Shown piece by piece: positions 49,077-64,000 of a stretch of 64,000 bases of DNA. Positions within the stretch are counted from its first letter, which is position 1. Each line of letters opens with the position of its first letter. The stretch covers positions 1 through 64,000 of the forward strand of contig JAPLMQ010000281.1 of the NCBI GenBank assembly GCA_026386955.1, read 5' to 3'. The position numbers and the translations under genes are program-made. The notes beneath the pieces were generated by a model. That model searched no databases. It saw only the letters and a list, made by a program, of their open reading frames with translations, and had not been told where the DNA came from. The DNA comes from Planctomycetota bacterium (GTDB taxonomy: Bacteria > Planctomycetota > Phycisphaerae > Phycisphaerales > Phycisphaeraceae).

Positions 49077-49096
49077 TCTTTGGCTTGGAGATCCGC

Positions 49097-51901
49097 ATGT
49101 CCCAGGGGACCGACGCCGCCCGCCCAGACCCCGACGCGCTGCTCGCCGCCGTCACCGCCGATGAGAAGCGGGCCGCCCGCGGCAAGCTGCGGATCTTCTT
49201 CGGCGCCGCGGCGGGCGTCGGCAAGACCTACGCCATGCTCTCCGCGGCCCGCGACAAGGCGGGCGAGGGCGTCGACCTGGTCGTGGGCTACGCCGAGCCC
49301 CACGCCCGCCCCGAGACCGAGGCCCTGTTGCTCGGCCTCGAGCTCATGCCCTACAAGCTCGTCGAATACCGCTCCACGAAATTCAAGGAGTTCGACCTCG
49401 ACGCCGCGCTCAAGCGCCGCCCCGAGCTGATCCTCGTCGACGAGTTGGCCCACACCAACGCCCCGGGGATGCGCCACGCGAAGCGCTGGCAGGACATCGA
49501 CGAGCTCCTGCAGGCGGGCATCGACGTCTACACCACGCTCAACGTCCAGCACATCGAGAGCCTCAACGACGTGGTCGCGCAGGTCACCGGCGTGATCGTG
49601 CGCGAGACGCTGCCCGACGCGGTCTTCGAGGCTGCCGACGAGGTGGAGCTGGTCGACCTCGCGCCCGACGAACTGCTCGACCGGCTCTCGGAGGGGAAGG
49701 TCTACTTCCCCGAGCAGGCGGAGCAGGCACGGCAAAAGTTCTTCAGGAAGTCGAACCTCACCGCCCTGCGCGAGCTGGCCCTGCGCAAGACCGCCGAGCG
49801 CGTCGGGGCTCAGGTGACGGCCGCGCGGCGGCAGGAGTTCTCGCGCCGGGCCTGGCCGACCTCCGAGCGGCTGCTGGTCTGCATCAGCCCCAGCCCGCAC
49901 GCGGCCCGAGTGATCCGCTCCGCCAAGCGCATGGCCTCGGCGCTGCAGGCGCCGTGGACCGTCGTCTACGTCGAGACGCCCCGGATGCACGAGCAGCCGC
50001 GACCGGTGCACGACCAACTCCTGCGGAACTTCCGCCTCGCGGAGCGGCTGGGGGCGCGCAGCGTCACGCTGACTGGCCTGAACCCCACGGACGAGATCCT
50101 CGCCTACGCCCGCGTGAACAACGTGACCAAGATCGTGGTGGGCAAGACCGCGCGGGCCTGGTGGCGCGAGATCCTCCGCCGGCCGATCGTCGACCAACTC
50201 ATCCGCCGCGCCGCCGACGTCGACATCTACGTCATCCACGGGCTGCCCGAGGCCCGCCGGACCGAAATCCCCGAACCCAGCGGAGGCGGCTCCCGCGGCG
50301 ACGACGGCGCGAACGAGATCCTGCCCCGCATCGACTGGCCGGTCTACCGCAACTGCGGGCTGATCCTCCTGGCCTGCACCGCCGCCGCGGCGCTGCTCTA
50401 CTACGGGATGGACGTCCCCTCCAAGGGCGACCTCTCCAACCTCATCATGGTCTACCTCGTGGGCGTGGTGGCCGTGGCGGCGCGCTACGGGCGCACGCCC
50501 TCGGTGGTGATGGCGGTCGTCACCGTCGCCTTCTTCGACTTCTTCTTCGTCCCGCCGCGGTTCAACTTCGCCGTGACCGACACGCCCTACCTCATCACCT
50601 TCCTGGTCATGCTCGGCGTGGGGCTTGTGATCGGGACGCTCACGGTGCAGGTGCGCGAGCACGCGGAGGCCAGCCGCAAGCGCGAGCGGCGGATCGAGGC
50701 CCTCTACCGGATGACCGACCGGCTGGCGGGCGCGATGGACCTGATGTCGCTGCTGGACGTGGCGGCGCGGGAGTTGGCGGAGGTCTTCGCGGCCCGCGTG
50801 GTGCTGTTGCTGCCCGACGAGCGGAGACGATTGGAGTTCCGCCGGGCGAGCGAGACGGGCGTGGTGTTGCCCGACGCGGAGCTGGCGGTGGCCCAGTGGG
50901 CGTTCGACCACGAGACGATCGCGGGCTGCGGGACGGACACGCTCCCTTCCTCGCCTTGGCTCTACCTGCCTATCGGGACGGGCAGCCCGCCCGCGGGGGT
51001 GGCGGGCGTGGCGAGCGTGGAGCCTGGGCAGACGCCGCAGTTGATGTCGCCCGAGCAGCGCACGCTGCTGGAGGCCTTCCTCGACCAGATCGCGCTGGCG
51101 GTGGAGCGCAACGGGCTGGCGCAGCGGGCGCGGATCGCGCAGATGCAGGCCGAGGCCGAGCGCGTCCGCAACACGCTGCTCTCGAGCGTGTCGCACGACC
51201 TGCGCACGCCGCTGGCGGTGATCAGCGGGGCCAGCGGCGGGCTGCTGGAGGCCGCGGCGTCGGACCCGGCGGCGAGCCGGGAGTTGGCCCAGACCATCCA
51301 CGACGAGGCCGAGCGGCTCAACCGCCTGGTGGGCAACCTGCTCGACTTGGCGAGGCTCGAGTCGGGCGCGGCGCAGCCCGCCCGGCAGTGGCAGCCGCTG
51401 GAGGAGATCGTCGGCTCGGCGCTGCATCGGCTGTCGCCGCGCCTGGGCGGACGGGAGGTCGTCACGCGGATCCCGACCGACTTGCCCAGCCTCTTCGTCG
51501 ACGGCGTCCTGTTCGAGCAGGCGCTGATCCACCTGCTCGACAACGCGGCGAACTACACGCCCGCGGGCTCGCCGATCGAGGTCGCCGCGACGGCCAAGCC
51601 GGGCGGTGTGCAGGTGAGCGTGCTCGACCGCGGCCCGGGCCTGCCCCCGGCTGAGCTTTCGCGCGTGTTCGACAAGTTCTTCCGTGGCTCGACCGCCGGC
51701 TCGCAGCGCGGCGCGGGCTTGGGGCTGGCGATCTGCAAGGTGATCGTCGAAGCCCACGACGGACGCGCCTGGGCGGAGAACCGCCCGCCCGCCGGCGGCA
51801 CGGGCGCGGCGTTCCACCTCTTCATCCCGGTCGAGGGCGCCCCGCCCGCGGCCGGCGCAATCGGAACCTCGGCCCCGAACGAGGGACAAACCGGAAGGTG
51901 A
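49097..51901 (+). CDS. kdpD: Osmosensitive K+ channel histidine kinase KdpD
   Basis: About 934 residues with the full KdpD layout: an N-terminal KdpD domain with Walker A (GAAAGVGKTYAM) and DELAHTNAPG, a universal-stress-like domain (residues about 255-380), four membrane helices (DUF4118; about 415-510), a GAF-like domain (about 535-660), the dimerisation helix with phospho-acceptor His700 in SVSHDLRTPLAVISG, and an ATPase domain with DNAANYTPAGSPIEV and GAGLGLAICKVIVEAH. It senses K+ shortage and phosphorylates KdpE. I chose the ATG at 49097, which has GGAG six bases upstream; a TTG twelve bases earlier is possible. Confidence 0.96.
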   Translation: MSQGTDAARPDPDALLAAVTADEKRAARGKLRIFFGAAAGVGKTYAMLSAARDKAGEGVDLVVGYAEPHARPETEALLLGLELMPYKLVEYRSTKFKEFDLDAALKRRPELILVDELAHTNAPGMRHAKRWQDIDELLQAGIDVYTTLNVQHIESLNDVVAQVTGVIVRETLPDAVFEAADEVELVDLAPDELLDRLSEGKVYFPEQAEQARQKFFRKSNLTALRELALRKTAERVGAQVTAARRQEFSRRAWPTSERLLVCISPSPHAARVIRSAKRMASALQAPWTVVYVETPRMHEQPRPVHDQLLRNFRLAERLGARSVTLTGLNPTDEILAYARVNNVTKIVVGKTARAWWREILRRPIVDQLIRRAADVDIYVIHGLPEARRTEIPEPSGGGSRGDDGANEILPRIDWPVYRNCGLILLACTAAAALLYYGMDVPSKGDLSNLIMVYLVGVVAVAARYGRTPSVVMAVVTVAFFDFFFVPPRFNFAVTDTPYLITFLVMLGVGLVIGTLTVQVREHAEASRKRERRIEALYRMTDRLAGAMDLMSLLDVAARELAEVFAARVVLLLPDERRRLEFRRASETGVVLPDAELAVAQWAFDHETIAGCGTDTLPSSPWLYLPIGTGSPPAGVAGVASVEPGQTPQLMSPEQRTLLEAFLDQIALAVERNGLAQRARIAQMQAEAERVRNTLLSSVSHDLRTPLAVISGASGGLLEAAASDPAASRELAQTIHDEAERLNRLVGNLLDLARLESGAAQPARQWQPLEEIVGSALHRLSPRLGGREVVTRIPTDLPSLFVDGVLFEQALIHLLDNAANYTPAGSPIEVAATAKPGGVQVSVLDRGPGLPPAELSRVFDKFFRGSTAGSQRGAGLGLAICKVIVEAHDGRAWAENRPPAGGTGAAFHLFIPVEGAPPAAGAIGTSAPNEGQTGR

Positions 51902-51908
51902 GGCGAGC

Positions 51909-52607
51909 ATGCCGGGCGACGCCCCGTTGATCCTGCTGATCGAGGACGACCCCCAAATCCGGCGCTTCCTGCGCCCGACGCTCGCGGCCCAGGGCTATCG
52001 GCTCGTCGAGGCGACGACCGGCAACGAGGGTCTGACGCAGGCGGCGACGCAGCCGCCGGACGTGGTGATCCTCGACCTGGGCCTGCCCGACATCGACGGG
52101 CTGGAGGTGACGCGCCGACTGCGCGACTGGACCGCGGTGCCGATCGTCGTGCTCTCCGCCCGGGGGCAGGAGAGGGACAAGGTGGCCGCGCTCGACTTGG
52201 GGGCCGACGACTACCTGACCAAGCCCTTCGGCGTGCCGGAGCTGCTGGCCCGGCTGCGCGCGGCCCTTCGTCGCTCGGCGGCGCGGGCCGCGCGCGAGCC
52301 CGAGGCCGTCTTCGCCGTCGGCGACCTGCGCGTCGACCTCTCCGCCCGGCTCGTGAGCGTCGCGGGCGCGGAGGTCCACCTCACGCCCACGGAGTACCGC
52401 GTCCTGACGACGCTGGTCCGCCACGCGGGGAAGGTCGCGACGCACTCGTTCCTGCTCAAGGAGGTCTGGGGGCCGCCCCACGTGCAGGAGACGCATTACC
52501 TGCGCGTCTTCATGGCGGGGTTGAGGCGCAAGTTGGAGAAGGACCCCGCGCAGCCGCGATATCTGCTGACGGAGCAGGGGGTGGGGTATCGGTTGGCGGT
52601 GGAGTAG
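51909..52607 (+). CDS. kdpE: KdpE response regulator (OmpR family)
   Basis: A 232-residue OmpR/PhoB-class regulator. The receiver domain has the acidic pair in LLIEDDPQI, phospho-acceptor Asp56 in VVILDLGLPDIDG, and Lys in DYLTKPFGVPELLARLR. The winged-helix end has LTPTEYRVLTTLVRHAGKV and HYLRVFMAGLRRKLEKDP. It is separated from kdpD by seven bases. The GAATCTT repeat at 44056 is a plausible target. Element B follows the stop and may end the transcript. Confidence 0.96.
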   Translation: MPGDAPLILLIEDDPQIRRFLRPTLAAQGYRLVEATTGNEGLTQAATQPPDVVILDLGLPDIDGLEVTRRLRDWTAVPIVVLSARGQERDKVAALDLGADDYLTKPFGVPELLARLRAALRRSAARAAREPEAVFAVGDLRVDLSARLVSVAGAEVHLTPTEYRVLTTLVRHAGKVATHSFLLKEVWGPPHVQETHYLRVFMAGLRRKLEKDPAQPRYLLTEQGVGYRLAVE

Positions 52608-52826: not shown

Positions 52827-53486
52827 TCACCGGACAACGCGACGGCGGGCAAGGAGGGCGCCGGCGAGCAGCAGTGTCATCGCAGCGCTCGCGGGCTCGG
52901 GCACATTGGTCGAGGGTGGGATCGCTACGCCGTCGGGTTGCCCGAGCGAGACCGTGTGGGCCGTGGAGCCGGCGAAGGAGGGGACGAGGCTGCCGCCGAT
53001 GGTGCCGCCGACGTCGGTCGTCAGTCCGGGGTCGCCACCGCCGAGGGAGACGATGGGCGTGCCGCCCGAGGGCAGGCCGGCGAGGCTGACGTTGAGCGTG
53101 CCGATGTGCTGCGACGCCCCGCCGGGGAGGAGGAACGGCCCGAGGACGGGGTCGTTGGGGGCGATCAATCCCAAGCCCGTGTTGACCGAGAGGAGCTCGA
53201 TCCACCCGGGCAGCGTCGCCGCGTCGATGTCGAAGCTGAACCGACTGAAGTCGGTCCCGCCCGCGGTGAGGTCGGCGCTGCTGCCGGTGACGGAGAGCTG
53301 CACGGCCTCGATCTGGTCGCCGGGCGCGCCGGTGAAGAGGACCGAGACGGCGAAGTGGGCCGCGCCCGACGAGACGGTCGCCGGGCCGAGGTCGACCTGG
53401 GCCGTGGCGGCCAGCGCGGGCAGGGGCAGGGCAAGCGCCGCAAGAGCGATGAGGGCGGCGAAGCGTCCGAGCATTGACTTAAACAT
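52827..53486 (-). CDS. PEP-CTERM sorting-domain protein
   Basis: 219 residues: signal peptide (FAALIALAALALPLPALA), a beta-rich cohesin-like middle (residues about 28-190; ATAQVDLGPATVSSGAAHFA), and the C-terminal PEP-CTERM signal VPEPASAAMTLLLAGALLAR plus a basic end (RRVVR). Such proteins are cut by an exosortase (EpsH/XrtA-type; none in the window) and attached to the cell surface or exopolysaccharide. GGAG lies seven bases before the ATG. It starts only 32 bases after the stop of the giant gene, on the same strand, so the two are probably co-transcribed. The cohesin-like reading is tentative, but would be striking beside a dockerin. Confidence 0.85.
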   Translation of the reverse strand: MFKSMLGRFAALIALAALALPLPALAATAQVDLGPATVSSGAAHFAVSVLFTGAPGDQIEAVQLSVTGSSADLTAGGTDFSRFSFDIDAATLPGWIELLSVNTGLGLIAPNDPVLGPFLLPGGASQHIGTLNVSLAGLPSGGTPIVSLGGGDPGLTTDVGGTIGGSLVPSFAGSTAHTVSLGQPDGVAIPPSTNVPEPASAAMTLLLAGALLARRRVVR

Positions 53487-53518: not shown

Positions 53519-56500
53519 TCAGATCGAGTGGTTGAGCTGCTTGGTCCAGAGCAGGTAGTCGGCGATGTTGACCAAGCCGTCGTTGTTGAGGTCGAAGGCG
53601 GCATCATATCCGGGCGTCCCGAGCTTGCTGCCGAGGCGGGCCTGGAAGATCGGGCGGTCGCCGATGGTGACGGAGCCGTCGCCGTCGTAGTCGCCCAGGA
53701 GACGGTGGAATGCGATGCGGTGGATGCCGTCGATCGTGGCGTCGGTGTCGATCAGGTTGGTCGACCCGTCGTCGGCGGTGATGAGGTTGGTGTCGAGGCG
53801 CAGCTCGTAGCGGCCGTCGCCCAGGATCGTGCGGCGGTCGGTGCCGCCGAGCCCGCCCAGCGTGAGGTCGAGCGAGAGCGTGCGGGAGCCCGTGTCGTAG
53901 TGGAACCGCGCGGGGACGAGGGCGACCTGCACCGGCGCCGGGATGCCGACCTGCCAGAGCTGGACGGCCTGGGTGACCGTGCTGTCGGTGATCAGCGCGG
54001 GGAGGTTGGTGTCGCGCCCGAACTGGACGTCGACCGTCTCGACGTTGGACCGCTGGTCCTTCCCGGCCTGGTCCTTCGCGGCGTTGACCGTCGAGGAGGC
54101 CACGGCGAGGGACGGGACGTTGAGGACCTGGAGCGTGACGGTGGCGAGGTTGGAGACCTGCCCGAGCGAATCCTTCACGGTGTAGGTGAAGGAGTCCTGG
54201 CCCGAGAAGTTCTGGGCAGGCTTGTAGAGGAACTTGCCGACGCCCGCGTCGTAGACGAGCAGGCCGTGGGTCTGGGCCGTGCCGACCACGACGGTCGCGA
54301 GGTTGAAGGTCACACCCAAGCCGTGGGAGTCGTTGTCGAGCACGGAGAACTTGATCGAGGAGTTCTCGTTGACGGAGAGCAGGTCGTTGTCGGCCACGGG
54401 GGCCTGGGGCACGGCCGGGTTGACGGCGATGGTGGTGGTGTAGTCGCTGAAGCCGCCGTTGACGTCGGTGATGCGCCCGTGGACGACGCGCGAGGCGACG
54501 CCGGTGAGGTACGAAGCGGGGACGGCGACAGTGGCGCTCGAGGAGCCGGCGAGCTCGAACGTGCCGTTGTCGTCGAAGTCGTAGCTGAACTTGAAGCCCG
54601 CGGCGACGACGGAGGCGAGCGGGTGGAACGGGCTGTTGAAGGAGACGGAGCCCGCGGTCCCTTCAGTGACCGCGCCGGCGTTGGTGAAGGCGGCCGTGGG
54701 GTTGACCTGCGTGATGGAGGCGACGGCGGAGAGGGGTGTCGAGCCGCCTGCGGAGTCGTTGACGGTGACGGTGACGGTGTAGAGCCCGTGGATCGCGTAG
54801 TCGTGGGCGAGGTTGAAGGACTTGTCGGGCTTGAGGGTGAGCGGCTGGTCGCCCGAGCCGTCGCCGAAGTTGACGGTGGCGGTGAAGGTCTGCCCGGCGT
54901 CGGGGTCGGTGAAGGTGCCGGCGAGGGCGAAGGTGGTGCCTTCGGGGGTGGCGGCGGGCGCGTCGAGCGAGACGCCCGGGGCGACGTTGGCGGCGGCGCC
55001 GAGGGTGAATTGGCGGACGTAGGGCGCGGCGACGTTGCCGCCCGCGCCGGCGAGGGGCAGGCCCGAGGTGTCGTGCAGGCTGCGGGTGGCGTCGCTGAAG
55101 ACGGTCAGGCGGTAGAGGCCCGCGGGGAGCGCAACGGCGGGCAGGTTGAGCGTGAGCGAGGTGGCGTCGAGCGTGTACTGCGGGGTGAGGGTGTAGAGGA
55201 TGTCGTCCGCGTTGCCCAGGGTGCCGTTGGGCCCGGCGAAGCGGAGTTCGTAGAGCGCGGGGGCGTTGGCGTCGGTGGGGTTGAGCGGCTCGCTGGTGGT
55301 CAGGACGATCTGGGTGAGCGGCGCGGGGACTGAGCCCGAGGCGTGGACGCCGACGGGCGTCGAGCCGGTGATGGTCGGGAGCGTGGTGTCGGCGCTGGAG
55401 CCGCGGAACTCGTAGGCGCCGATGTCGGCGAAGCCGGGGGTGAAACTGAAGAGGACGGAGTTGGCGTTGGTAAGCGTGGCCTGGTTGTTGGTCGGGGCGA
55501 GGAGGAAGGTCGAGCCGTCGCCGCGGGAGACGCCGGCGGTCGGAGTGAGCCCGGTGTTGCCGGCCCCGTAGTCGAAGCGGATCTGCCCGTCGGCGAAGAG
55601 GACGACGGCGAAGTTGACGGGCTGGCCGTTGCCGTTGTTCGTGCCGGACCAGCGGAAGCGGACCTGGTCGGCCACGGTGGCGTCGATGAAGACGTTGGTC
55701 AGGGCGCTCAAGTTGTCCCAGAGGGGCGTGACGCGGATGTTGGTGAGGAACTTGGCGGCGGTGTTGTTGGTGTCGTTGGGGCCGTCGACGCCGCCGAACT
55801 GCAGCACGCCGGTGACGGAGACGTAGACCGAGGTGTAGCTCGCGCCGTAGAACGGGAAGGCGAAGGGGAGCGTGTAGGAGTTGTAGCTGCTGAAGAGGTT
55901 GAGCTGCGTGCCGCCCGCGGGGTCGAAGAGGCTCGAGCCGAGGGTGGAGACGGCGTAGTCGGGCGCGCCGGCGTTGGTCGTGCCGGGGTCGTCGACGCGC
56001 CCGGCACCCAGGAGGTCGGCCGCGGGGAGGCCCCAGGCGTAGCCGCGGTCGATCGCGGGCGAGCCGGCGAGAAGCTGGAAGTTGTCGTCGCTCCCGCCGT
56101 CGAGGTTCTGCGTGGTGTCGTAGGCGAAGATGTTGTCGGCGCCGTTGATGTCGATGAACGCCGGGTCGGCGAAGAGGCTGTGGACGTCCTTGCCCGAGGC
56201 GGCCTTCCACGCGGCGAAGTCGGCCTGGGTGGCGTCGTTCCAATAGCCCACGAAGGCGTTGGGCGCCGGGCCCTTGAAGAACTCGTTGTAGTCGCTGGTG
56301 AGCCCCGTCTGGGTGTTGGCGGCGACGTAGAGGCCGTAGCCCGCGTTGACCTGGACGATGTTGGAGCGGATGTCGATGTTGCCGAACCCGCCGTCGACGC
56401 GGATGGCGTCGCCCACCGGCTGGTAGATGGTGTTGGAGCTGACGTGGACTTGGTTGAACGAGTCGCCTCCGCCCACGAGGATGCCTTGGTTGGCGTTGGC

Positions 56501-59500
56501 GTAGATGAGGTTGTCCTCGATGCGCCCGCTCCAACGGCGGGAGGATGACGTGCCCGAGACCATGACGCCGATGGCGTTGCCGTAGATGCGGTTGCCGATG
56601 ACCGATTCGCGGTTGCTCACGACGATGCCCGCGTGGGCGTTGTGGAAGACGCGGTTGTGGTCGATCAGGGCGGTCTGCCCGTTCGAGACGATGCCGTCGT
56701 AGCTGTTGTAGACGGTGTTGTTGGTCGCCTGCCCGACGACCTGGATGGCGGCGACGCCGTTGCCCGCGACGTTGTAGACGGTGTTGCCGGTGACGAGGGT
56801 GTAGAGCCCGCCGCGCAGGCCGGTGCTCGTGGTGTCGTGGACGACGTTGTTGGAGATGGTGTTGACGACGGTGCTGTTGGGCGAGCCGGAGTTGTCGACG
56901 ATGCCCTGCTGGGTGTTCGAGACGGCATTGCCCGAGACGATCGCGCGTTGGCCGCCGACGTCGATGCCGATGAAGCCGGTGTTCGCGACGGTGTTGTTGA
57001 CGATGTGCGTGTCGTTGCCGCGGGCCTGGATGCCGATGCCCTGCAGCGTGCTGCTGGCGTTGCCGGCGGGGTTGCCCGAGACGATGTTGTTGATGAGGGT
57101 CGTGGCGCTGCTGGTGCTGTCGAGGATCGCGCCGGCGGCGCCGTTGTTGAAGAGCCGGGAGTTGGAGATCGTCAGCCCGGCGCTGGTGACGGCAAAGGGG
57201 TTGAAGATGTTGGCGCTGTAGACGCCCACGTCGGCGCCGGTGAGGGCGAGGCGGTCGAGCGTGACGTTGGCGGCGCCCGTGAACTCGATGTCGTAGATCC
57301 CGCCGTTCTGGAGCTGGCGCGAGGCGGGCAGCCCGCCGCGGGAGAGCATGGCCTCGCCGACGCCCGCCGCGGGGCCCTGGATCGCCACGCCATTGACGTC
57401 GGCCGCGAGGCGGAGGTTGCGCAGGAGCGTGTAGCTGCCGTTGTCGACATGGACGGTGTCGCCCGCGTGGGGCTTGTAGGCGGCGAAGAGGCCCAGGAGG
57501 CTCGCCATGGGCGAGTCGGGCGACTTGCCGGTGTTGGCGTTGTTGCCCACGACGGTGGTGAGGCTGTCGCCCGCGGTGGCGTTGTCGTTGACGTAGTAGT
57601 CGTGCCCGGCGTTGGCGACGAGGAACGCCTGCTTCGACTGGCCTTGGGGCGAGCCCGCGGCATTCGCGACGACGCGGACGAGATCCTGGTTCGAGACCGG
57701 GCCGGCGGTCCAGTTGAACGAGCCGTTGCCGAGGTGGTCGACGCCCACGGCGGCGGCGAGGACGCTCCAGTTCGCGCCGTTGTCGGTCGAGAGTTGGACG
57801 CTGAAGGTCGGCGCGGCCACCCCGCCGGCGTTGGCGGAGAGGATCTCGATGCCCGCGAGGACCGCGCCTGTGTAGGTCTTGTTCACGAGGTCGAGCGTGA
57901 GCCCCGCCCCGCCCGCGGCGACGGCGGCGATGGTCTGCTGCGTCGCCTTGGCGAACGTGCCGGCGTCGCCGGTGATGTCGTAGTCGGCGACGGCGACGGC
58001 GCCTTGAGCAACGATGTCGAAGACGCGGCTGCCCACGTTGCTGTTGTACGGCTCGAAGAAGTGAAGGCGGAGCGTGTAGGAGCCGTCGGGCACGGCGAAC
58101 TTGTAGGAGAGCTTGTTGCCCACGCCGTTGGTGGCCGCGTCGAAGCTGCGGTAGACCGCCGCGGGGGCGGGATCGACCACGCCGCTGACGTCAACGGGGG
58201 TGGTGTAGGCGGCCGCGGCGCTGCCGGAGGTGAGGTAGCGGTCGGCCGACCAGCCGGAGCCGTCGCCCCCGCCGGCGTCGACCAGGAGAACGGGCGACTG
58301 GAGCGTCAGCCCGGTGCTGCGCCACTGGATCGGGACGGCCTGCCCGAGGCTGAACTTCTCGCGGCCCACGGGGGTGAGGACCTGCACGAGCCGGGCGGTG
58401 CTGGTCGCCGCGAAGGCGGTGTTGCCGTCGTACCCGATGTTGACGCGCCGGCCGTTGGGGCCCGGCTCGTTGACGTAGGCGGAGGAGGGGTCGCCCGCGT
58501 CGATGGCGGGCGAGTCCGCCTGGAGATGGAAGTTGTCGTCGAGGCCCTTGTCGGCCCCGCCGACGAAGCCCAAGCCGCCGTCGGCGCCGTCGGGGTCCAC
58601 GAAGCGCGGGTCGGCGAAGAGGCTGTTGCCGTCGATGCCGAGGTTGTAGAACGCGTCGTCGAGGGTGGTGACGGCGACGCCGGCCCAGGTGGCGATGCGG
58701 CCCGCGCCGGTGGCGAAGTAGACGTTGTAGTCGCTGAAGAGCCCGGCGGCGGAGTCGAAGGCGACCTTGAGGGCGCTGCCCGCACCAACCTGGATGATGT
58801 TGTTGCGCAGGTCGGCGGTGTTGGTCGACTGGTCGACCACGATGCCGTCGCCCACCGGCTGGTAGATGGTGTTGCCCCAGACGCGGGAGCGGTTGGCGAC
58901 GGTGTCGAAGGCGCTGGACTCGACGAGGATCGCCTCGGTGGTGTTGGCGTAGACCAGGTTCCCGCTGACGTCGCCCTGGAAGCCGCCGCCGTTGAAGTTG
59001 GCGAGTTGGATGCCGATGGGGTTGGAGTAGACCGTGTTGCCGCGGACGACCGGGTTGCCGTTGGTGAAGATGCCGAGCCTGGTGTTGTTGTAGACGCGGT
59101 TGCCGGTGACGGAGGTCTTGGGCTCGTGGGCGTCGATGCCGAGGTTGCTGTCGTGGACGGTGTTGCCCACGGCGGCGGCCCCGTAGCTGACGGAGATGCC
59201 GGTGCCGAGGTTGTCGGACCGGATGAAGTTGTAGGCGGTGTTGTTGGAGACGGTGACGGCGTTGGTGGCGTAGATGCCGAAGCGCCCGGCGTCGTGGACG
59301 GTGTTGCCGGTGACGAGGCTGCCGTCGCCGCTGACGGTCATGCCGTAGTCGGCCTGGAAGTCGACGGCGTTGAGGCTGTAGAGGGTGTTGCCGGAGATCG
59401 TGGTGCTGGGCGCCGCGGCGCTGATGCCGGTGCGCTGGAAGGTCGAGAAGTCGCTGAGGTCGCCGTAGATGGTGTTGCCGCTGATGAGCGTGTTGGTGTT

Positions 59501-62500
59501 GCCGTACGGCAGGTCGATGCCGATGAAGTTGTTGTCGAAGATGGTGGAGTTGGTGATCGAGACGTGGTCGATGGCGCTGCCGCCGAAAGGGCCGGTGACG
59601 AAGTGGACGCCCACGTAGGCTCCGGTGATGGAGAGGTGGTCGAGGGTGATGTTGCTCGCCCCCGTCTGGAGGTCGAAGCCATAGGTGCCGAAAGCGCCGG
59701 CCCCGCGGTCGAAGAGGGCCTGGTGGCCCGCGCCGGTGGGGCCAACGATGGTCACGCCCGCGTAGTCGGCGGTGAGCGTGACGTTCTGCAGGAGGTTGTA
59801 GGTGCCCGAGTCGACGAAGACGGTGTCGCCGGCGTGGGGCTTGTAGCTCGCGAGGAGGGCCGAGAGGGTCGCCATCGGGGCCGAGGGGGCCTTGCCGGAG
59901 TTGGCGTCGTTGCCCACGGCGGTGGTGTATTCGTCGCCCGTGAGCGAGTTGTCGTTAACGTAGAAGTTGTGCCCGCCCGGGACGATCTGGAAGGCCTGGG
60001 GCGAGGCGCCGCTGACGGTGGGCTGGTCCTCCGACGTGACCTTGACGAGCGCGTTGGTCCCGTTGGACTGCGGCCCGGCGGTCCAGAGGAAGCTGCCCGC
60101 GCCGAAGCGGTCGGCGACGATGCCCGCGGTGATCGGGGCGTAGGTCGTGCCGTTGTCGACCGAGACCGCCAGGTCGAACTTCGCACTGGCTGCGCCGGCG
60201 GGATTGATCGAAACAAGCTCGATGCCCGAGATGAGCGGGCCCAGGTCGGGGTTGAGCGGGCTGGTGCCGACCAGGTCGAGTTGGATGCCCTGCCCCCCCG
60301 CGGCGTTGACGCTGAAGGTCTGTGTCGCCGCCTTCAGCGGGGCGCCGGCGTCGGCGACGATGTCGTAGTTGCTCTTGACCGTCGCGTTCTGCAGCTTGAT
60401 GTCGAAGGTGCGGAAGCCCGCCTGGTCGAAGAAGGGGTCGGCGAAGTGCAGGCGGATGCTGTACGCCCCGTCAGGCACCGGCAGCGAGAAGGAGATGCGG
60501 TTGCCCGTGGCGGAGTTGGCGAAGGCCATCGACTGATAGACCGCCATCGGCGCGGGGTTCGTCACGCCCGAGGTGTCGACGGGCTGGTTGGTCGTCTGGC
60601 TGAAGTTGGTCGAGCCCAGGATCGAGGCTTGGTTGGTCGGGAGCGTCTGGTAGTTGCCGAAGAGGTATTGCCCGACCGTCGGCCCGCCGACGTTGATGAA
60701 GGAGACCGGCGCCTGGCTGGCGATGCCCAGCGAGGTCCATTGGATGGTGAAGGGGCTGCCCTCCTGAATCTGCTCTCCGCCATGCGGCGCGAGGACGACG
60801 ACCGCGGGGCTGGCGCTGGGCGTCGCCTGGGGCGTGTTGCCCTCGAAGCCGAGGTTGATGCGCCCGCCGTTGGGCTGCGGCTCGGAGAGGAAGTAGCTCA
60901 GCGGGTCGCCCGCGTCGATGCCCGGGGACTGGGGCTCGGAGAACTCGCCGCTGCCGGTTGGGGGCGAGAGGTGGAAGTTGTCGTCCTGCCCGTGGTCGAC
61001 CTTGGCGGCGATGTCGTAGCCCAGCGCGAAGTCGACGCCCGGGGGGTTCACGAAATCGGGGTCGGCGTCGAAGCTGTGGGCGTCGAAGCCGAGGGTCGTG
61101 GAGTAGGTCACGAGGTCTGCGAAGGCCTGGGCGCCCCACTTCGCGACGGTGCCCGAGCCCGTCGAGTGGATCAGGTTGTAGTCGCTCGAGAAGCCGGACT
61201 GGCTGCTGGCGTCGACGGTGAGCGCGACGCCCGCGCCGACCTGGATGATGTTGTTGCGGATGTCGATGCCCGAGGCGTTGGTGTCGACGCGCACTCCGTC
61301 GCCCGTGGGTTGGTAGACCGTGTTGTTCAGCACGCGCGTGTGGTTCTGCGCATTGCCCCCGTGGACCTCGATGCCGGCGACGGTGTTGGCGTAGACCAGG
61401 TTGTTTTCGACCTTGTAGGCCGAGACGATGCCGATGCCGTTGGAGTAGGCTTGGTTCCCCTTGGCGAGCGCGGCGTCGACGATGCCCGCGACCGAGTTCC
61501 CGAAGACGCGGTTGCCCGAGACCAGCCCGCCGCCCTGGATGCCGTTGGAGTTGTCGTAGACGACGTTCCCGCTCACCTGGTCCCCGCCGTAGATCCCCGC
61601 GGTGAGCGTGAAGCCGCCCGGGCTGACGTTGTGCCCGAAGACGGTGTTGCCGGAGACGACGACGCGCGGGACGAGCTGGTTCGAGTTGGACGACGAGGAG
61701 GTGACGATGATCCCGGCGTTGGTGTCGTCGTGGACCGTGTTGCCGCTGATGGTCGAGACGTCGGCGGCCAGGCCCGTGGCGATGTTCGAGACCGCATAAT
61801 CGATCCCGTAGAGGTAGCCCGAGACATTGTTGCCGCTGATCACGTTGCGCAGCCCGCCCGAGGCTATGCCGAAGTCGACGTCGCTGAAGATCGGGGTGGA
61901 CTGTGTGAGCGTGTTGCCCGAGATGAGCAGGTTGTTCGCGTTGGCGGCAATGGCCGTGCCCTGGGCGTGGATCGGGACGCCCTGCACGATGAGGCTGCGG
62001 TCGCCCGAGAGCGTGTTGCCGGTGATGGCGGCGAAGTCGTTGTTGGACGTCAGGTCGATGCCGCGGGTGAGGTTGTCGAAGATCCGCGAGTTGCTGACGG
62101 TCAGGTGCGTGGCGTAGCCGACGCTCCCAAAGCTGTCGGCGAAGACGCCCACGCGGGCGCCGGTCATCGACAGGTGGTCAAGCGTGACGCCCGAGGCGTG
62201 CAGGACCTCGGCGACGTAGCCGTTGGGCGTGTTGTTCCCGCGGACGAGCACGGCCCCGTCGGCGGGGTCGGCGGCGTGGATGCCCTCGATGCGCACGCCC
62301 GCGTCGTCCGCGCCGACGGTGACGTTGGTGGTGAGGAAGTACGAGCCGCGGTCGACGCGGACGACGTCGCCCGCGCCAAGGTGATACGCCGCGAGCACCG
62401 CCTGGATGGAGGGCTTGGGCGTGGCGGGCGTGAGCCCGTCGTTGCCGTCGGCGCCCGCGGCGGTGGTGAGGCTGCCCGCCTCGACGGAGCCGTCGTTGAC

Positions 62501-64000
62501 ATAGAATGTGTGCGTGACCGGGGCGATGGCGAAGGCGGCGCTGGAGCCCGCCCCCGCGGCGTCGGAGCGGGTGACGCGGACGACGTAGTCGTTGTCCGGG
62601 GCGAGGTCGGCCGGGAGGGACCAGTCGTAGCGGCCCGTGTTCGCGGCCGCGGGGGCGATGGTGCGCACGACCGAGGCCGAGCCGGCGTGGAGCAGTTCGA
62701 TCACCACATTGCCCGCGACGTCCTGCGAATGCCAGAGGATGGAGAAGGTCTCGCCCATCGGCCAGACCGCGGCCGCCTGCGGGGACGTGACCAGCACGTA
62801 CTGCGAGGGGCTGCGCGAGGCCTGAGCGGTGTTGCCGTAGGCGCCGAGGTTGACGGCGTTGCCGTTGGGCGCGGTCTCCGTGCCGGGGACGAAGGGAACG
62901 GCGAAGTCGCCGCGGTCGATCGCGGGCGACTGGGCGGCGTCGGCGGTGAGCGAGCCGGGGTTGGCGACGGGCAGGCCGGAGCCGCCGAGGATGGGCGCGA
63001 GCGAGCCGCCGTGGAACGAGCCGGCGGTGCTGCGCTCGTGCAGGTCGCCCGACCCGGGTGCGACGAGCAACGGATCGATGGCGAGGCTGGAGTAGTCGGT
63101 GAAGGCGGTGTTCTGCCAGGCGAGCAGCGTCGTGGGGTGGCGGCCCTGCCAGTCGCCGATCGCGCCGCCGGGGGCGTAGAGGATGTTGGAGTCGCTGGTG
63201 AAGTGGAACTGGCTGTCGTCGGCGACGCTGATCGCGGTGGAGCCGGGGGCGTCGATGATGTTGTTGCGCAGCTCGATGTCGCGCGAGTTGCCCTCGACGC
63301 GGACGGCGACGCCGCCGGGCTGGTAGACCGTGTTGTTGAAGACCTGCAGGTGGCCCGACGGGATCGCGCCGCTCGGGAGCGTGTTGATCGCGGTCTGGAT
63401 GAGCAGCCCGGTGTGGGTGTTGTTGTAGACCGCGTTGTTGGCGATCTGCGGGACGCCCGAGATGAGGCCTCGCATCAACAGCGCCTGCACACCGATGTCG
63501 TTCCCGTAGACGGTGTTGCCCGTGACGGCGACGTCATTCTGGGCGTAGATGCCGACGTGGGTGTTGTCGTACACGCGGTTGTTGTCGACGCTCGAGGAGT
63601 TGAAGGCCTCGATGCCCCTGGAGTTGTCGTAGACCACGTTGAGCGTGGCGCGGTCGCCCGAGCTGACGTGGATGCCGGCGTATTGGTCGAGGTTCTTGTG
63701 GTCGTGGACGGTGTTGCCCGCAACGACCACGCCCAAGGTCGCGCCCACGGCGGAGGAGGTGAAAATGCCGTTGCGGTCGTTGTGGTAGACGATGTTGCCC
63801 AGACCGGCCGGCAGGTCGAGGCTGCCGATCAGCGCCGTGCTGCCGAAGGTGGGGTTCACGACGTAGATGCCGAAGCCCTTGTTGTCGTGGACCGTGTTCC
63901 TCTGGACGACGATGCCGCCGGCGTTGGTGAGGTCGATGCCGTCGGCGCCGTTGTCGTAGACGCTCGAGTTGCTCAGCGAGGGGATGACGCTGGCGACGAC
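53519..64000 (-). CDS. Giant modular beta-helix/malectin/PKD protein with dockerin end, 5' end beyond window
   Basis: Frame open from the right edge to the stop at 53519 (3493 codons visible, start not seen). Built of large modules, from N to C: beta-helix (to about 62830); a KNH/Ser-Thr-rich-like beta-sandwich (about 62520-62810); YVNDGS linker and beta-helix (about 62510-60940); a malectin-like domain (60205-60700) inside a second such sandwich; YVNDNS (about 59960) and beta-helix; another malectin-like domain (57835-58291) inside a third sandwich; YVNDNA (about 57600) and a last beta-helix (to about 56040); then NIDO-like (about 55985-55405), Ig-like, PKD and cadherin/Big-type domains (VADNDLLSVNENSSIKFSVL). 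It ends in a dockerin-like pair: DYDGDGSVTIGD and DLNNDGLVNIADY (53522-53702). The helices use many VTGNTVY-type turns. Likely secreted and surface-attached; a carbohydrate-binding or adhesion role is inferred. Confidence 0.85.
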   Translation of the reverse strand, partial: VVASVIPSLSNSSVYDNGADGIDLTNAGGIVVQRNTVHDNKGFGIYVVNPTFGSTALIGSLDLPAGLGNIVYHNDRNGIFTSSAVGATLGVVVAGNTVHDHKNLDQYAGIHVSSGDRATLNVVYDNSRGIEAFNSSSVDNNRVYDNTHVGIYAQNDVAVTGNTVYGNDIGVQALLMRGLISGVPQIANNAVYNNTHTGLLIQTAINTLPSGAIPSGHLQVFNNTVYQPGGVAVRVEGNSRDIELRNNIIDAPGSTAISVADDSQFHFTSDSNILYAPGGAIGDWQGRHPTTLLAWQNTAFTDYSSLAIDPLLVAPGSGDLHERSTAGSFHGGSLAPILGGSGLPVANPGSLTADAAQSPAIDRGDFAVPFVPGTETAPNGNAVNLGAYGNTAQASRSPSQYVLVTSPQAAAVWPMGETFSILWHSQDVAGNVVIELLHAGSASVVRTIAPAAANTGRYDWSLPADLAPDNDYVVRVTRSDAAGAGSSAAFAIAPVTHTFYVNDGSVEAGSLTTAAGADGNDGLTPATPKPSIQAVLAAYHLGAGDVVRVDRGSYFLTTNVTVGADDAGVRIEGIHAADPADGAVLVRGNNTPNGYVAEVLHASGVTLDHLSMTGARVGVFADSFGSVGYATHLTVSNSRIFDNLTRGIDLTSNNDFAAITGNTLSGDRSLIVQGVPIHAQGTAIAANANNLLISGNTLTQSTPIFSDVDFGIASGGLRNVISGNNVSGYLYGIDYAVSNIATGLAADVSTISGNTVHDDTNAGIIVTSSSSNSNQLVPRVVVSGNTVFGHNVSPGGFTLTAGIYGGDQVSGNVVYDNSNGIQGGGLVSGNRVFGNSVAGIVDAALAKGNQAYSNGIGIVSAYKVENNLVYANTVAGIEVHGGNAQNHTRVLNNTVYQPTGDGVRVDTNASGIDIRNNIIQVGAGVALTVDASSQSGFSSDYNLIHSTGSGTVAKWGAQAFADLVTYSTTLGFDAHSFDADPDFVNPPGVDFALGYDIAAKVDHGQDDNFHLSPPTGSGEFSEPQSPGIDAGDPLSYFLSEPQPNGGRINLGFEGNTPQATPSASPAVVVLAPHGGEQIQEGSPFTIQWTSLGIASQAPVSFINVGGPTVGQYLFGNYQTLPTNQASILGSTNFSQTTNQPVDTSGVTNPAPMAVYQSMAFANSATGNRISFSLPVPDGAYSIRLHFADPFFDQAGFRTFDIKLQNATVKSNYDIVADAGAPLKAATQTFSVNAAGGQGIQLDLVGTSPLNPDLGPLISGIELVSINPAGAASAKFDLAVSVDNGTTYAPITAGIVADRFGAGSFLWTAGPQSNGTNALVKVTSEDQPTVSGASPQAFQIVPGGHNFYVNDNSLTGDEYTTAVGNDANSGKAPSAPMATLSALLASYKPHAGDTVFVDSGTYNLLQNVTLTADYAGVTIVGPTGAGHQALFDRGAGAFGTYGFDLQTGASNITLDHLSITGAYVGVHFVTGPFGGSAIDHVSITNSTIFDNNFIGIDLPYGNTNTLISGNTIYGDLSDFSTFQRTGISAAAPSTTISGNTLYSLNAVDFQADYGMTVSGDGSLVTGNTVHDAGRFGIYATNAVTVSNNTAYNFIRSDNLGTGISVSYGAAAVGNTVHDSNLGIDAHEPKTSVTGNRVYNNTRLGIFTNGNPVVRGNTVYSNPIGIQLANFNGGGFQGDVSGNLVYANTTEAILVESSAFDTVANRSRVWGNTIYQPVGDGIVVDQSTNTADLRNNIIQVGAGSALKVAFDSAAGLFSDYNVYFATGAGRIATWAGVAVTTLDDAFYNLGIDGNSLFADPRFVDPDGADGGLGFVGGADKGLDDNFHLQADSPAIDAGDPSSAYVNEPGPNGRRVNIGYDGNTAFAATSTARLVQVLTPVGREKFSLGQAVPIQWRSTGLTLQSPVLLVDAGGGDGSGWSADRYLTSGSAAAAYTTPVDVSGVVDPAPAAVYRSFDAATNGVGNKLSYKFAVPDGSYTLRLHFFEPYNSNVGSRVFDIVAQGAVAVADYDITGDAGTFAKATQQTIAAVAAGGAGLTLDLVNKTYTGAVLAGIEILSANAGGVAAPTFSVQLSTDNGANWSVLAAAVGVDHLGNGSFNWTAGPVSNQDLVRVVANAAGSPQGQSKQAFLVANAGHDYYVNDNATAGDSLTTVVGNNANTGKSPDSPMASLLGLFAAYKPHAGDTVHVDNGSYTLLRNLRLAADVNGVAIQGPAAGVGEAMLSRGGLPASRQLQNGGIYDIEFTGAANVTLDRLALTGADVGVYSANIFNPFAVTSAGLTISNSRLFNNGAAGAILDSTSSATTLINNIVSGNPAGNASSTLQGIGIQARGNDTHIVNNTVANTGFIGIDVGGQRAIVSGNAVSNTQQGIVDNSGSPNSTVVNTISNNVVHDTTSTGLRGGLYTLVTGNTVYNVAGNGVAAIQVVGQATNNTVYNSYDGIVSNGQTALIDHNRVFHNAHAGIVVSNRESVIGNRIYGNAIGVMVSGTSSSRRWSGRIEDNLIYANANQGILVGGGDSFNQVHVSSNTIYQPVGDAIRVDGGFGNIDIRSNIVQVNAGYGLYVAANTQTGLTSDYNEFFKGPAPNAFVGYWNDATQADFAAWKAASGKDVHSLFADPAFIDINGADNIFAYDTTQNLDGGSDDNFQLLAGSPAIDRGYAWGLPAADLLGAGRVDDPGTTNAGAPDYAVSTLGSSLFDPAGGTQLNLFSSYNSYTLPFAFPFYGASYTSVYVSVTGVLQFGGVDGPNDTNNTAAKFLTNIRVTPLWDNLSALTNVFIDATVADQVRFRWSGTNNGNGQPVNFAVVLFADGQIRFDYGAGNTGLTPTAGVSRGDGSTFLLAPTNNQATLTNANSVLFSFTPGFADIGAYEFRGSSADTTLPTITGSTPVGVHASGSVPAPLTQIVLTTSEPLNPTDANAPALYELRFAGPNGTLGNADDILYTLTPQYTLDATSLTLNLPAVALPAGLYRLTVFSDATRSLHDTSGLPLAGAGGNVAAPYVRQFTLGAAANVAPGVSLDAPAATPEGTTFALAGTFTDPDAGQTFTATVNFGDGSGDQPLTLKPDKSFNLAHDYAIHGLYTVTVTVNDSAGGSTPLSAVASITQVNPTAAFTNAGAVTEGTAGSVSFNSPFHPLASVVAAGFKFSYDFDDNGTFELAGSSSATVAVPASYLTGVASRVVHGRITDVNGGFSDYTTTIAVNPAVPQAPVADNDLLSVNENSSIKFSVLDNDSHGLGVTFNLATVVVGTAQTHGLLVYDAGVGKFLYKPAQNFSGQDSFTYTVKDSLGQVSNLATVTLQVLNVPSLAVASSTVNAAKDQAGKDQRSNVETVDVQFGRDTNLPALITDSTVTQAVQLWQVGIPAPVQVALVPARFHYDTGSRTLSLDLTLGGLGGTDRRTILGDGRYELRLDTNLITADDGSTNLIDTDATIDGIHRIAFHRLLGDYDGDGSVTIGDRPIFQARLGSKLGTPGYDAAFDLNNDGLVNIADYLLWTKQLNHSI

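Follow-up and report, generated by a model that had tools for sequence, protein, structure and literature searches.

Introduction

Split immunoglobulin (Ig)-like domains that project ligand-binding domains are already known from RTX adhesins, where examples include the hydrophila protein AhLap and V. cholerae FrhA (PMC12077191; PMC10865825), and a carbohydrate-binding module projected from such a split domain binds cells via fucosylated glycans (PMC12077191). Here, we describe what appears to be the same principle in a different family of giant proteins, with another shell, other guests and another stalk. The protein in question is encoded in part by a stretch of 64,000 nucleotides from a Planctomycetota bacterium (contig JAPLMQ010000281.1, positions 1 to 64,000 of the forward strand), hereafter called the window, and two of its sandwiches related to the Kre9/KNH Ig-like domain (the shells) are interrupted at one loop by a malectin domain (the guest).

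As in RTX adhesins, a lectin-like domain would emerge from an interrupted Ig-type beta-sandwich in a fibrous protein of giant size; guests of more than one kind occur, and the termini of the guest lie close together. Unlike the tandem Ig extenders of those adhesins, the stalk consists here of beta-helices, and the KNH-like shell, compared as a profile with PDB chains at E values up to 10, matched none of them. The chain leaves the sandwich after the second strand, whereas it does so after the first in AhLap (PMC12077191). The guests also differ, being malectin and Laminin_G_3 domains, and paralogous units either repeat one guest in tandem or stand empty. RTX adhesins have RTX repeats and a type I secretion signal at the C-terminus; a Pfam search of the frame retrieved no RTX family match, and the C-terminus carries a dockerin type I domain instead. 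By analogy, the protein would work like an RTX split-domain system, but on the features compared here it falls outside that group.

Three further groups of proteins are relevant for comparison. The guests belong, in sequence and modelled fold, to the malectin proteins (PF11721), which comprise animal malectin, plant FERONIA/ANXUR and bacterial carbohydrate-active enzymes, but they are placed inside a loop of another domain. Similarity to the Kre9/KNH Ig-like domain (PF10342) extends to uninterrupted K1 and empty units, which pass the cut-off, and to the split shells, which align over their whole length. Great length, stalk repeats and domains of adhesive type are shared with fibrillar adhesins (PMC8286594), although malectin, KNH and beta helix are not mentioned in the text of that survey. 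In the papers searched, no description of malectin nesting was found, and the one paper that mentions both planctomycetes and malectin was unrelated.

Malectin domains nested in KNH-like sandwiches

The giant open frame lies on the minus strand, occupies positions 53519-64000 of the window and continues past its edge; since the assembly contig ends at 68970, the frame comprises at least 5149 amino acids (aa), with its 5′ end missing. It contains four KNH-like sandwiches in the order K0, K1, KM1 and KM2, each followed by a beta-helix. K0 (64550-64858), found by reading upstream of the window, and K1 (62513-62812, minus strand) are whole, and K1 passes the Kre9_KNH model PF10342 with 42.1 bits (cut-off 24.6; 1.5e-10). 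In each of the other two, a malectin domain interrupts the sandwich at one loop. The KM1 unit (59972-60811, minus strand) is composed of a front part at 60707-60811 (1.1e-8 with the whole-shell profile described below), a malectin domain of 174 aa at 60185-60706 (PF11721), and a rear part at 59972-60184 (3.5e-8). Similarly, the KM2 unit (57605-58399, minus strand) has its front part at 58292-58399 (2.9e-8), a malectin domain of 160 aa at 57812-58291 (PF11721, 1.2e-14, also recognised with AlphaFold and Foldseek) and its rear part at 57605-57811 (2.7e-8). A first-pass annotation, made from the sequence of the window, had counted three tandem units, one unbroken and two interrupted by inserts of about 155-165 residues. 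Its unbroken module is K1, and the two split units stood; with K0 outside the window there are four sandwiches, so that two of four are nested, and the proposed insert length fits the KM2 guest and is too short for that of KM1.

As a test of the split, malectin was excised from 20 related units and the remaining halves were compared, profile to profile, with nine uninterrupted sandwiches. The front half corresponded to columns 1-33 and the rear half to columns 36-104 of the whole sandwich. Aligning sandwiches with and without the insert had been suggested in the first-pass annotation, and the joined halves indeed matched the whole sandwiches with 98.4% probability and a score of 82.8, the benchmark comparison of K0 with K1 giving 78.0. 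When the halves were placed in reversed order the score was 53.5, the value of the rear half alone, and the malectin insert matched the whole sandwich with a probability of 0.3%. In a second test, a profile built from 14 whole K1/E shells, with no split unit included, was run on the intact split units. In KM1 and KM2, this profile recovered front and rear matches that flank the malectin domain in the right order at 1e-8 to 4e-8 each, and both halves were matched in 22 of the 24 split units, the front match being missing only in the two units of G408. The socket loop is located after the second strand, between ...IxWRS and VxIEL..., at shell-profile positions of about 32-35. Taken at the level of sequence, these comparisons confirm the nesting of malectin inside a KNH-like sandwich, as had been claimed for two modules.

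The Pfam KNH model gave a narrower picture. On the guest-excised shells of the window it produced 16.8 bits for joined KM1, below the cut-off of 24.6, and no match for joined KM2; it did pass on the joined shell of G873 and on the rear half of a unit of G029 that is split by Laminin_G_3. The Pfam model is too narrow for the split shells of the window, which can be called KNH-like by profile-profile homology only.

We also analysed the identity of the guests. Model PF11721 matched both guest stretches (9.3e-28 for the whole protein) with 52.6 and 55.1 bits, well over the curated cut-off of 23. AlphaFold2, run with seven alignment rows from which sequences of other genomes were left out, modelled the KM2 guest well, with a predicted local distance difference test (pLDDT) score mostly of 82-93. 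The best Foldseek match of this model was human malectin (7.2e-8), and its neighbours also included ANXUR ectodomains, CBM35 and an accessory domain known from beta-glucuronidases of the gut. The concern that the assignment might rest on Pfam alone was set aside, since the fold search agrees with it. By sequence and modelled fold the guests are thus identified as malectin domains, which are probably sugar-binding, their putative ligands being glycans.

Distribution among relatives and alternative guests

Within the phylum, 11 genomes contained a total of 22 nested malectin units. The first-pass annotation had proposed to look for the same nesting in other planctomycete giants; full-length nested units were present in ten further genomes of the phylum (G053, G100, G383, G408, G508, G515, G773, G845, G873 and G909) that span several families and classes. 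Host frames were always long (1831 to 9103 aa), and many of them end at contig ends. The frame of G773 (L110+L111) reached 9103 aa and that of G100 (L040+L041) 7994 aa. LEPR-like N-termini were observed in relatives and would fit the planctomycete label of the first-pass annotation. The order of the window protein, K0-K1-KM-KM, recurs in G408 and in G508, where it is spread over two contigs, and profile hits indicate it for G515 as well. This spread over relatives with the same order indicates that the composite is older than the window protein, or that it has been passed between lineages.

The spread is patchy, as any match at 1e-10 was obtained in 14 of 400 genomes of the order, most of these matches being free malectins. 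The neighbours of the closest free malectins in the sample were other domains, not KNH halves. Contiguous shells were detected in 89 of 294 genomes of the phylum. Outside it, the genome-contig scan yielded a single relative, an empty KNH domain in a Krumholzibacteriota protein, which served as the outgroup empty site. Because whole shells are common and also present outside the phylum, the uninterrupted state was taken as ancestral. Viral-contig scans returned free malectins or nothing, and no nested unit. Empty units, in which the two pieces are contiguous, occur in the same proteins as split units, and K1 is empty in the window protein as well as in G408, G508, G135, G024 and G909b.

Searches with the joined shell revealed that the loop does not always hold malectin. 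In G454 and G029, the same loop of K1 is occupied by about 230 residues, which correspond to Laminin_G_3 (PF13385, a ConA-like lectin fold; 7.8e-30 and 5.7e-26), the units being located at L142:10158-11153 and L143:491-1492, respectively. In shell coordinates, the break falls at 32/31 and 34/33 in these units vs 35/33 in KM2 of the window; on the Pfam KNH model, the interruption lies between positions 22 and 27, and that of the malectin units at the equivalent place. Those units of G454 that stand at the malectin positions carry no guest. In addition, PA14 was found in the linker between helix and sandwich of four units, one in G873 (L114), two in G024 (L186) and one in G135 (L185), with matches of 7.4e-21, 5.8e-8, 1e-5 and 2.6e-13. 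The two PA14 units of G024 are successive, so perhaps a PA14 composite has been copied too. Collectively, these matches place at least two unrelated lectin-like folds at the sandwich loop and a third one at the adjacent linker.

History of the composite unit

In a phylogenetic tree, all 20 guests included formed one clade against 30 free malectins with support of 99/96, the free malectins being a limited sample drawn from the same profile search. The guests of KM1 and KM2 both fell within this clade, and the shells of nested units share one common insertion site. Guests of the same genome were often sisters (G053, G508, G408 and G773), which points to repeated copying within lineages or to homogenisation.

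A case of copying was found in G773, where two nested units lie side by side and agree at 93.1% of DNA positions along 1322 bp that cover the front shell, the malectin domain, the rear shell and the start of the helix. Such identity indicates that the unit was copied with the guest already inside, and provides a demonstration at the DNA level that an already nested unit has been copied. That the near-identical copies are an assembly duplicate was set aside, the genome being a single contig and the units diverging further along the helix. In the same protein, stretches of beta-helix upstream of the first malectin unit match a later part with 98% DNA identity across 1159 bp, so that tandem copying is recent and ongoing. 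Empty units have been copied too, as two adjacent ones in G909 share 84% protein identity over 562 columns. The KM1 and KM2 pair of the window shares about 38% protein identity over the unit, and the copying behind it is old and undatable.

The first-pass annotation had proposed that such giant proteins grow by copying a unit after a domain entered it. The single guest clade, the common site and the copies of G773 bear out the order of events, insertion followed by copying. As an account of growth, the proposal is supported, but it leaves out the alternative guest, the empty units and a composite that predates the protein; since relatives house another domain in the same loop, copying explains only part of the history.

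Discussion

We consider it likely that the protein is a fibrous adhesin in which a loop of the KNH-like sandwich serves as a socket for the presentation of lectin domains, and that its composite units arose by one insertion, or very few, followed by tandem copying. It would be a fibrous protein of great length, secreted or exposed at the surface, and made of repeats of a KNH-like Ig-type sandwich, a right-handed beta-helix and a linker. In the third and fourth units, the chain would begin the sandwich, exit to fold the malectin domain, re-enter and complete the sandwich. An ancestral insertion would have generated the composite, tandem copying would have multiplied it, and several guests per fibre may confer avidity. 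Being tethered at both ends, the malectin domain is expected to project from the fibre; the guests would point outwards and bind glycans, and the protein is a predicted adhesin. The split shell, the shared site, the common ancestry of the guests, the recent copy of a nested unit, the second unrelated guest and the empty units are what sequence comparison contributes to this proposal.

Two results weigh against it. In the AlphaFold2 model of the KM2 unit, the shell had a low pLDDT of 33-58 (the KM1 unit, modelled with two alignment rows, had a mean of 36), so that a closed sandwich is not seen in the model and its closure rests on homology; that the two halves close into one sandwich is what we infer from the sequence alignments. 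The other result concerns the shell tree. It resolved three position classes, namely K0 (100/99), K1 (95/89) and a malectin/empty class, and in the best tree the malectin shells were not one clade and required three changes. A single clade of malectin shells was not rejected (p-AU of 0.30, approximately unbiased test). With moderate confidence, we conclude that malectin was gained once and later lost in some units, and the empty units probably include such losses. A separate alignment to which rear-half fragments of whole sandwiches had been added was discarded, as MAFFT misplaced it.

The poor modelling of the shell, together with the window's split shells lying below the Pfam KNH cut-off, would also suit an explanation without nesting, in which each flanking piece is a small domain or linker of its own and only resembles KNH strands. 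This is very improbable, because a profile made without split units matches the halves, for 22 of 24 split units, to complementary, consecutive parts of the sandwich in their proper order, and because empty units with contiguous pieces occur in the same proteins. If nesting is accepted, the loop might still be a hot spot at which malectins were inserted separately in several units. The loop of K1 does take Laminin_G_3 and so accepts insertion more than once, and the three changes on the best shell tree point in the same direction; against this, every one of the 20 guests tested falls in a single clade, within the limits of the free-malectin sample, and the G773 identity runs across shell, guest and helix start. 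We regard independent entry as quite unlikely.

As regards function, the protein could instead be a carbohydrate-active enzyme or a cellulosome-like component whose helices are lyases or esterases and whose malectins are accessory binding modules. The Beta_helix and NosD matches represent a fold common to carbohydrate-active enzymes, a dockerin type I stands at the C-terminus, and CBM35 and the beta-glucuronidase accessory domain are among the folds nearest to the guest. No catalytic family, however, was matched anywhere in the frame, and the four to five repeats of the helix have diverged like copies of a scaffold, which leaves an enzymatic role unlikely.

Beyond the fibrous adhesin with a lectin-presenting loop proposed above, we give about even chances to a broader interpretation, in which giant beta-helix proteins form a family found throughout the phylum and use the KNH loop as a standard socket that can be filled again and again: malectin and Laminin_G_3 would enter, leave and be exchanged there, the linker would take PA14, and tandem copying would multiply the guests. 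If this were true, it would constitute a natural plug-in system altering what a bacterial surface fibre sticks to. What is new, and unusual, is that among paralogous and orthologous units one loop may be without a guest or may hold either malectin or a ConA-like lectin. These units provide natural before-and-after pairs for domain insertion, with which the permissiveness of the site and the exchange of guests can be tested. For annotation, an interrupted KNH domain within a giant open frame may be used as a marker of candidate glycan-binding domains.

Remaining features of the giant frame and its neighbourhood

The window part of the frame (53519-64000, minus strand), which is the 3′ part of the gene, gave Pfam matches to 14 beta-helix stretches (Beta_helix and NosD), two malectin stretches and one KNH domain, and further to PKD and Ig/cadherin-like domains and the C-terminal dockerin type I. 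As delimited by Pfam and unit alignment, beta-helix H2 with its linker extends from K1 to KM1 (60813-62513, minus strand), and H3 with its linker, 39% identical to H2, from KM1 to KM2 (58391-59970, minus strand); H4, which follows KM2 (56009-57607, minus strand), contains the best Pfam Beta_helix stretch. Past the window, at contig positions 64001-68970 (L010), the upstream part of the giant protein shows a weak PPC domain (5.7e-4) and, ahead of the first beta-helix, a long region in which Pfam matched nothing.

Opposite the giant gene, an antisense frame of striking length (2456 codons) runs through window positions 56633-64000 on the plus strand; GC-rich codon usage is its most likely cause. 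Immediately downstream of this gene, positions 52827-53486 (minus strand) encode a small secreted protein whose tail, VPEPASAAMTLLLAGALLARRRVVR, was recognised by eye as PEP-CTERM-like. Finally, the plus strand at 49085-52607 encodes a KdpD-like sensor kinase and, after it, a KdpE-like response regulator, both also recognised by eye.

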